From a bacterium (lineage in GTDB: Bacteria > T1Sed10-126), in assembly GCA_003557545.1 (NCBI GenBank), contig PWOD01000051.1, positions 1-10,078 on the forward strand: a DNA stretch of 10,078 nt, read 5' to 3'. A program made the position numbers and the translations under genes. A model generated the notes under the pieces. The model was given only the letters and a program-made list of their open reading frames with translations. It was not told the origin of the DNA and did no database searches. Position 1 is the first letter of the stretch, and the number at the start of each line of letters is the position of its first letter. This document shows, piece by piece, positions 2,396 to 6,000 of this stretch.

Positions 2396-2486
2396 GTTTT
2401 TTACGACTTAGGCCCAATCTCTATCGGAAGGTAAAAATATTTAAAATGATCTATACATCATAGACAAAAACAGGCGAAAATTTAAA

Positions 2487-3008
2487 TCACCTGATTATGG
2501 TAAAATTCCCACTGCTGGAATAACCGCCGCCCTTTATCAGATAGATATAAGTGCCCGATGACAGCTCCGGATTCCAGCTTGCCTCCTCATTACTCACCTC
2601 AAGAGTCCTGCTCAGTATCCTATGGCCAGTTAAACTATATAGTTCTAAAGTTATTCTTTCGCCATAGTCGACCGGCACATAAAAGGTCAACGGGTCTCCC
2701 CCGCCCGCAACAAACGGATTTGGATAGGAATATACCTCGGTCACCGGTTCCGACGGCTGTTCCGGATCAACAAAACTTGTTGGCCAGTTGTGATGATCAG
2801 GCCCCGTTATATACCAGGTCGGCGAATTACGACCCGCTTTCCAGGACAGATAGGGATAAGCTTCATTTCTTAGCTCACTGCTCTGTTCTATATCCCAGCC
2901 CGCTGTTTCATAAGTCCGGGGATGCCGCATCTGTTTCGGGTTTCTTCCGGTCCCCCCAGCACTTTCTACCTGCCCACTCTTCTCAATATCCCAGAAGCTG
3001 TCTTCCAC
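2487..3008 (-). pseudogene. C-terminal remnant of a fourth paralogue (SFWD block plus C-terminal sorting-type domain)
   Basis: This is an open frame of 173 codons ending TGA at 2487-2489. It corresponds to the last 166-170 residues of genes B and C: DSFWDIEKSGQ, AGWDI, EAYPYLSW, NSPTWYIT, YSYPNPF (from residue 93), SGTYIYLIKG and terminal TIIR. The only plausible initiator is a GTG at 3008 with no Shine-Dalgarno site. That GTG aligns with the Val of GEVSDSFWD in gene C, so it is probably an internal codon of a former GLUG repeat. Homology stops about one codon further upstream, and an in-frame TGA lies eight codons before the GTG. There is no signal peptide and there are no upstream domains. 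The frame is otherwise intact, so loss of the 5' part was recent, or the cassette is retained for expression by readthrough from gene B (74 nt upstream) or as a recombination donor. A real small protein is less likely. Confidence 0.75.
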
Positions 3009-3082
3009 TTCGTAGATGACTATTACTAATCAGGCATAAACAAACCCCTAAAATAAGCCTCTTAGACCGATATTCAACAATC
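3009..3082. other. Short spacer between gene B and the remnant
   Basis: These 74 nt separate the gene B stop from the homologous part of the remnant. They hold clustered stop codons on the minus strand (TGA, TAG, TAA and TAG across frames around 3019-3035). The only symmetry is a weak CTAAGA/TTTTAG pairing near 3048-3065. I see no Shine-Dalgarno site, promoter or convincing terminator, so transcription from gene B may run into the remnant. Confidence 0.6.
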
Positions 3083-6000
3083 CTACCGAATGATCGTCAG
3101 GGTGCTGGAGCTACTGTGGCCGGAACCAGTTATTAGGTAGATATAGGTGCCGGATGCCAGGTCCGGCTGCCAGGTTACCTGATTGTCCTGGTTAACATCC
3201 AGCCGCTTACTGAGCAGACGACGACCCGCTATGTTGTAAATCTCAAGGTTTATCGACCCACCGTAGCGGGCCGGTACATCAAATATCACCCCGGGGGATA
3301 CTCCGGCGACATAGGGATTAGGATAGGAATATAACTGCTCAACCGGTTCTTCCAGGTCGGCTCTTGCCGCCCAGCTGTGATGATCTTCAGAAGTAATATA
3401 CCAGACCGGCGAGTTGGTTCCTAACTCCCAGGATAAAAAGGGATAAGCTTCATTATGGACTATCTCCGTTCTTTCAATATCCCAGCCCGCCTCCTGATAG
3501 ATCCTGAAAAAGCGCATCTGGGCGGGGATTAACGGATCGCCACCGGCACTGGAAAACTGACCGCTGTTTTCTTCATCCCAGAAGCTGTTTGTCACAACAC
3601 CCTGCCAGCTGTTGCCTACCAGACCACCGGTCATACCCTGCGCTTGGACCGGACCTCTGGAGTAGGATCTATCTATTTCACCGGCATTATAACCAACCAG
3701 TCCACCCGCCTGGAAACCGGTCGCTTCAACCGCAACATCGGCATAAACATTGTGGATCTGTCCACCCTGGTTCTGCCCAACCAACCCGCCCACCCGATAA
3801 AATCCAGCTGCTTCACCACGGGCCAGAGAATTGGTCAATAAACCGGTATTACGTCCGGCAACTGCCCCCACGTGCAGCCCCTCACCGCTGACCTTAACAT
3901 CGGCCTCCAACATCGACAGATCAGCTTCGTCGGACTGTCCAACAACTCCTCCAATATAATTACCATCGCCACTTACAGCCCCGCTGACAGAAATTCGGCG
4001 ACCTTCAGCAGCGCTAATTAGCCCGGCAACTCCACCGACATTCTCTCCACCGGTTACAACCAGATCAATCATTTCGATATCATGCAGGTTAGCACCGTCA
4101 CCGACCGCCCCAAACAATCCAACATCACTGGCCTCAGGACGGTTGATATGCAGCCCCTCAATCCGCTTGCCACTGCCATCAAACACCCCGTAAAAAGGTT
4201 CTGCCTGATGACCAACCGGATGCCAGCCACGACCTCCATCAGCCGCCTGACCGGCAATATCTTCATAGCCGAGCACTGTATCATCAAGATCTACAGTAAG
4301 CTGAAAGTTGGCCGACTTGTCCCGGTGCAGCTCGTCCAGCTGTTTCCAACTCTCGATACGATAGGGATCAGCCGGTGTTCCCCAACCACCAGCCAGATTA
4401 AGCACCGTCAACAGTGCGGTATCAGAGTTGTCAGCAAACTGCGGTTCAAGGCTGGTTAGTTTAACTTCCGCTCCATCATCCCGCTCAAGTTCAGTCGAAT
4501 AATCAAACACCAGCGTGCCGCTGGCTTTCGGCCCAAGATTTTTATGCTGACTGCCAATATTAGTTCCATCAACCTCAAAAACTATCTCCCGCGTCGCTTC
4601 ATAGTCACCAAGATTCTCCAGCCCCACAACAATCTCCGCAACATACCCCTTTGCCACCTGCAGAGCACTGGCCGCGTGGTCAATCGTCACTACAAACTCC
4701 GGATACCATAAGACTCGCAGTTTCACGCTATAACTATCATTATCAGTACTAACCCCTGCTTCCCGGCCATCATCTTCACGTTCGACTGAATAAAGAAATT
4801 CTACAGTCTCACCGGTTTGACCGGACAAGGTCAACTCCTGGTCTTCAATTAACTGACCGTCCACAGAGAACTCAATCTGCTGGGTTCCCTCCAGACATCC
4901 CCGGTTAAAGATCCAGGAACGAACCAGTGCAATCTCTCCCTGGTTGATCGTATCAGCACCATCAACAGAGTTTACCACCTCAACCATCTCTACCTCAAAA
5001 TAGGGCAGAGCAAACACCCTTAACTGACGGGTGTCATAAATATCATCTCGACCCACCCACATTTCAGCACCATCCTGGCCGGCGGCACACTCCTCGTAGA
5101 CAAACTCCACCGGAACTGTTTCGCCAGCAATTAACTCGAGGTTCTGACTGGCCACAAACTCGCCATCAAAATAAAACTCGATCGGCAGCCCATAGTCAAC
5201 CGACTCATAGTTTCTTATTGATGCCCGCAGATTAAACGGCTGCCCCTCAACCACCTCCAGGTCGGTTGCTTCGTCCTCAATCTCAACTGAAAAGGCGGGA
5301 TCCTCTATTACACCCAGCATCCGAGTTTCAGTCTCGTTGTTACTGCTGATTGCCGCTTCAACAAGTCCTTCTTCAACTGCTGGAGTATAGGTGAACTGAA
5401 CAGTATTACTATGCCCACCGACCAAGTTTAACACCTGGCTGTCAACCACGGTAGAATCAACTTTGAACATAATATCCTGGCTGTAGGTTACCTCGTTGAT
5501 ATTGGTAATCTCCGCCGTAACATACAGCTCATAACCTTCCACACCACGATAAAGACTTTCGTCATCCTGGATCTCGACGCTAAATTCAGCCGGGCGCAGA
5601 AGTGTCATACTGTGTAATTCTGGCGCAGTTGTGCCATCTAAACTTTCCATATTAACCTGAATTTGAAATTCAGAGTGACTCGCCGACCAGGGCAGCACCT
5701 GCTCGGTCTGACCGGTCAGCTCAACAGCCGAAATCGTCTCTTCAGCGGGGGTTCCCGGACTGCCAATAATATCCAGTTCGATTACCTGACCATTTAAATC
5801 ATACTCCAGCCCAACCAGCTCCGGCTTACCCGCCATCATCGACTCCGGGGCAGTCAGCAGATGTCCGGTTGTAGATTTATTCCCAACTATTTCAACCGCC
5901 AGTGAATTGAGCTCAGGATTTGCAACAAACACATCATCGGTTTCGAGCAGCTGACGTACCCAGAGATATTTTTCGGTCAGATCATCACCTGGAACAATTT

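Follow-up and report, generated by a model that had tools for sequence, protein, structure and literature searches.

A probable 5'-truncated remnant of a fourth paralogue in a tandem array of GLUG/T9SS genes

Introduction

Silent cassettes of the pilS/vls type are promoterless partial copies located beside an expressed gene, with which they share high identity and repeated short conserved blocks. In tandem paralogous families, 5'-truncated pseudogenes are recognized by homology that breaks off abruptly within the gene, together with the loss of the start signals. In orphan cdiA-CT fragments, initiation signals are likewise generally missing, and the sequence starts at a boundary motif (PMC3150448). 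An orphan CT module of this kind comprises a toxin domain with a linked immunity gene. Effectors of the T9SS, on the other hand, carry a Sec signal peptide in addition to a C-terminal sorting domain (CTD) (PMC10202324). Our literature searches retrieved no papers on GLUG proteins in combination with the T9SS or on silent cassettes in Bacteroidetes.

Here, we analyze a short open frame that shares features with all these systems, located within a tandem array of GLUG/T9SS genes. The window studied (10,078 bases) is the entire contig C80, one of the 239 contigs that make up a 2.15-Mb MAG. This genome seems to be a member of the candidate phylum T1Sed10-126 (“Candidatus Busufiota”), for which two genomes of 2.15 to 2.2 Mb, from hypersaline soda-lake sediment, are listed (PMC11382960).

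Results

Organization of the contig

The three large genes of the contig are all encoded on the minus strand, in the order C, B, fragment, A (Table 1). A preliminary description had placed the fragment between two full-length copies, but B is the only complete one, given that A and C both run off the contig. Gene B combines a signal-peptide-like N terminus, a Gly-rich region, GLUG repeats, an SFWD module, and a type A CTD. The tail of gene C, scored as a whole protein, reached 21.7 bits in TIGR04183. For gene A, ATG 2120 was favored over 2129 as the probable start. The N-terminal Gly-rich region is found in both A and B, and that of A matches Pfam ALK_LTK_GRD (7.8e-10), a domain that takes its name from animal receptor kinases. 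Beyond the 3' end of the fragment, positions 2130 to 2486 lack any frame of at least 60 aa on the minus strand, and a genome-wide search for matches to this flank gave nothing beyond 16 to 29 nt.

Much of the coding capacity of the genome is devoted to GLUG/SFWD proteins, with open frames of up to 5487 codons. A second tandem pair is found on contig C4, which breaks off within an A-like gene after its N-terminal part; the gene preceding it on the same strand ends in an SFWD/CTD tail.

Table 1. Features of the window
Feature	Coordinates	Strand	Description
Gene C	10077-7564	minus	Paralogue with its 5' end beyond the contig end; six GLUG stretches and sorting tail
Gene B	7408-3083	minus	Complete, 1441 aa; Shine-Dalgarno AGGAG
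Spacer	3009-3082	minus	74 nt after the stop of B; contains stops in frame with the fragment
Fragment	3008-2487	minus	GTG 3008 to TGA, 173 aa; probable 5'-truncated tail of a fourth GLUG/T9SS paralogue
SFWD...GWDIE...YPYLSW module	2838..3008	minus	Residues 1-57; in the paralogues, the closing segment of GLUG arrays
Type A T9SS C-terminal sorting domain	2490..2738	minus	Residues ca. 91-173; complete Ig-like fold
Gene A	2129/2120 to 3	minus	N-terminal part of a paralogue; contig ends before any tail

Homology and its 5' boundary

The fragment matches the last ca. 170 residues of B and C along its whole length, in agreement with the proposal that it is the tail of a fourth paralogue. Identity was 54% over 172 aa with the tail of B (E value of 4e-54) and 49% over 177 aligned columns with that of C (E value of 9e-47), values that exclude a chance resemblance. 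In the paralogues, the GLUG array closes in GGLVG, with SFWD some ten residues further on, while the homology of the fragment starts at E/V-E-D-SFWD, its VEDSFW being identical to that of tails on contigs C164, C4, and C136. Thus, the statement that the frame begins where the GLUG array of the paralogues ends was right to within a codon or two, and the GTG does stand opposite an internal Val of C, pairing with Val668. We considered whether a GLUG remnant was hidden in the spacer and rejected it, since the similarity of positions 3009 to 3082 to the GLUG-end DNA of ten paralogues was no higher than that of shuffled sequences (best P value of 0.027 among 10 tests). Together, the abrupt loss of homology inside the gene and the lost start signals (see below) are those of a 5'-truncated pseudogene.

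Encoded modules

The SFWD-GWDIE-YPYLSW module with which the fragment opens also recurs within the giant GLUG proteins of the same genome. The sorting domain reached 29.4 bits in TIGR04183 (cut-off of 23), although Pfam PF18962 gave 14 bits, below its cut-off of 27. In an AlphaFold model built with 40 sequences, this part had pLDDT values of >90, and the best structural matches of the predicted fold in VIA-align were T9SS CTDs (8glk_D, Z score of 10.3 and rmsd of 2.1 over 74; 8qb1_A, Z score of 10.1 and rmsd of 2.0 over 75; 8glj_D, Z score of 9.7; 5m11, Z score of 9.3). These correspond to NucA and FspA (bound to the T9SS), mirolase, and PorZ, with Z scores of 10.3 to 9.3, a range whose lower end (9.3) some unrelated Ig-like domains (AaCel9A) reach too. 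The fragment thus resembles the type A CTDs both in its fold, closest to those of these four proteins, and in having the complete set of motifs (SYPNPF, YG, SSGTYIYLI, and TIIR). However, unlike the substrates that carry such domains, it has neither the N-terminal Sec signal peptide of a functional T9SS substrate nor any cargo, which precludes its being an exported substrate in its present form.

This genome probably encodes a T9SS, judging from the PorV family (six matches over the cut-off) and 33 matches to TIGR04183 (21 over the cut-off), although SprA is represented only by three partial matches, all below the cut-off. The six PorV-family matches, which exceed the NCBIfam cut-off, are outer-membrane proteins encoded on contigs C73, C231, C119, C136, C77, and C53 and are possibly several specialized T9SS shuttles.

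Frame and start signals

The frame runs uninterrupted to TIIR, as originally described, with 173 codons from GTG 3008 to the stop at 2487 and zero internal stops. It is actually open for 180 codons, the seven additional upstream ones (LVIVIYE) following a TGA, and these contain no ATG, GTG, or TTG and no secretion signal. The frame therefore opens as (LVIVIYE)VEDSFWD after a TGA, with no upstream start codon, which bears out the lack of a signal peptide. GTG 3008 lies in a different reading frame from B, 75 nt past its stop; since a TGA also intervenes, we discarded the fragment as a continuation of B by frameshift or readthrough.

Along similar lines, the reported absence of a Shine-Dalgarno site held up when anti-Shine-Dalgarno pairing was computed over the 20 nt preceding each start. 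The value was 0.1 kcal/mol for the fragment versus −10.3 for B and −7.7 for A (from ATG 2120), and 90% of random places match or exceed the fragment start in pairing strength. The next internal ATG (Met27, which would give a 147-residue product) had −3.5 kcal/mol versus a background mean of −4.4. No promoter-like site for the fragment was found on the minus strand between 3008 and 3083, consistent with its description as promoterless, and no terminator-like site was found between B and the fragment. “Promoterless” need not mean untranscribed, and given both results, the fragment is probably part of the 3' untranslated RNA of B.

Age and constraint

In order to estimate the age of the fragment, we compared it with ten other tails with full-length coverage. 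Nucleotide identity to them was 48 to 60%, and synonymous sites were saturated against every paralogue (NG86 dS of at least 1.96 or not computable), indicating that the fragment was not copied recently from any present gene. In the tree, it grouped with B (85% ultrafast bootstrap), and its terminal amino acid branch was 0.40, compared with 0.16 to 0.65 for full-length tails. The fragment keeps 33 of the 35 columns that are invariant in the other tails and 42 of 46 nearly invariant ones, while full-length tails miss 0 to 2 and 1 to 4, respectively.

The comparison of dN/dS with homologues that had been suggested gave no usable ratio. A codon model with omega equal to 1 over the entire fragment branch was rejected (LRT, 21), and freeing omega on that branch gave no better fit (LRT, 0.03), but with omega near 0.003 and branch lengths close to their bound, the model was saturated and its ratios cannot be read as numbers. 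We also simulated neutral drift of the fragment and counted the runs that kept an open frame with three or fewer new violations. They amounted to 12% at 0.05 substitutions per site, 1.6% at 0.075, and 0.1% at 0.1. The simulation thus allows roughly 0.05 to 0.075 neutral substitutions per site for a fragment in this state.

The saturated divergence, together with the intact frame and the normally conserved residues, indicates that the sequence was in a working gene until recently; that is, for almost the whole of its history it evolved as part of a functional protein. A partial tandem duplication of the 3' end of B, dead from birth, was rejected on these grounds, since neutral decay over a time long enough to saturate synonymous sites would have destroyed the frame. 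Either the truncation is recent or some selection persists, and continuing selection would look identical to recent truncation.

Search for similar fragments and for the intact gene

Among 81 tail loci from other genomes, we found zero contig-internal frames consisting of a tail only; the shortest internal tail frames had 268 and 285 codons, and both included further sequence. In the genome itself, the other short orphan tails (C42, 67 aa; C197, 38 aa; C211; C215) have frames cut by contig ends and so give no support to an array of cassettes. The look-up in related genomes, also proposed at the outset, did not locate the orthologous locus. The single-sequence scan of contigs was empty, the profile scan recovered only tails of other proteins, and G001, the only genome of the same family searched, had no match to gene A and only weaker matches to the tail. 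No full-length gene was found at the same spot in these relatives.

Discussion

The most economical reading of these data, to which we assign a probability of about 0.7, is that an old fourth paralogue lost its 5' part fairly recently and that the fragment is what remains of it. A fourth, long-diverged GLUG/T9SS gene would once have been located directly downstream of B in the tandem array. A deletion would then have taken its promoter, start, signal peptide, N-terminal repeats, and GLUG array, leaving the 3' end 75 nt past the stop of B. We infer this deletion, since no relative was found with a full-length gene at the site. Of the two origins offered in the preliminary description, the recent deletion product is the one that fits, with old, saturated divergence and yet an intact frame and normally conserved residues. 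The remnant is probably copied within the 3' untranslated RNA of B and would not be translated to any useful degree. Even if made, its CTD presumably could not reach the T9SS, given that there is no Sec signal, and the sequence should now drift neutrally towards loss. The fragment resembles other 5'-truncated pseudogenes of tandem paralogous families in the abrupt start of homology inside the gene, the missing start signals, and the adjoining intact paralogue; it differs from them in that the frame is fully open, with no frameshift, which implies that it is either young or still under selection.

An assembly artefact, with the tail of an intact gene wrongly joined to the 3' flank of B or with strain variants collapsed, would also explain the preserved frame and conserved residues, which are what the tail of an intact gene would show. 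Many of the 239 contigs end inside members of the GLUG/T9SS family, including both ends of this one. However, the junction DNA (2440 to 3085) has no second copy in the assembly, and no repeated k-mer was visible that would explain a wrong join, which counts mildly against this explanation, and the spacer matches neither a GLUG end nor the 3' flank of another paralogue; we consider it unlikely. The fragment might also be an expressed small protein, i.e., a free-standing type A CTD translated from GTG 3008 or Met27 off the transcript of B and acting, for example, as a cytoplasmic T9SS decoy or regulator. The intact frame, the normal conservation, and the lack of a terminator-like site after B would all suit it, but a Shine-Dalgarno site is absent at both starts (0.1 and −3.5 kcal/mol, against the background mean given above), the frame encodes no signal peptide, whereas T9SS effectors have one (PMC10202324), and no comparable contig-internal tail-only frame of <268 aa appeared among the 81 loci of other genomes or elsewhere in its own. 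This makes such a protein very unlikely, and we give slightly less credit still to a maintained orphan secretion-tail cassette of an uncultured phylum, selected in frame and occasionally recombined onto neighboring GLUG surface proteins or translated as a T9SS-modulating free CTD.

The other origin originally offered, a silent donor cassette that could recombine into A, B, or C and alter their C-terminal part, found no support and is the reading that we regard as least probable, with hardly any chance of being right. Its appeal is the formal likeness to orphan cdiA-CT/rhs-CT genes, in which a 3' piece without initiation signals likewise lies behind a full-length homologue and starts at a recognizable boundary motif (PMC3150448). 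Nevertheless, the fragment encodes a secretion tail and has no toxin, no immunity gene, and no conserved recombination arm; it is a single copy rather than an array, and its tail is homologous to that of its neighbor. As a promoterless partial copy beside an expressed gene, it also recalls pilS/vls-type cassettes, but the high identity and repeated short conserved blocks of those are missing. The longest identical tract shared with any paralogue tail was 18 nt (16 with B and 10 with C), and the best 60-nt window reached 80%, against the low overall identity reported above. There was no upstream homology arm, no near-identical copy of the fragment in the genome, and no second contig-internal orphan tail. 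Thus, the high-identity tracts or homology arms that a silent cassette shares with its expressed copy were not found. Moreover, the part that would be donated is a secretion tag common to dozens of proteins, not a variable effector.

Taken as a remnant, the fragment is probably a fairly ordinary piece of a gene that does nothing now. Automatic annotation would probably label it “T9SS type A sorting domain-containing protein,” and it illustrates that the presence of a complete T9SS sorting domain does not by itself prove that a protein is secreted. If it were instead a maintained cassette, it would be a first indication that the tails of T9SS substrates are exchanged as modules. As a probable remnant, it would mainly document how an expanded family of surface proteins turns over in a little-known phylum.
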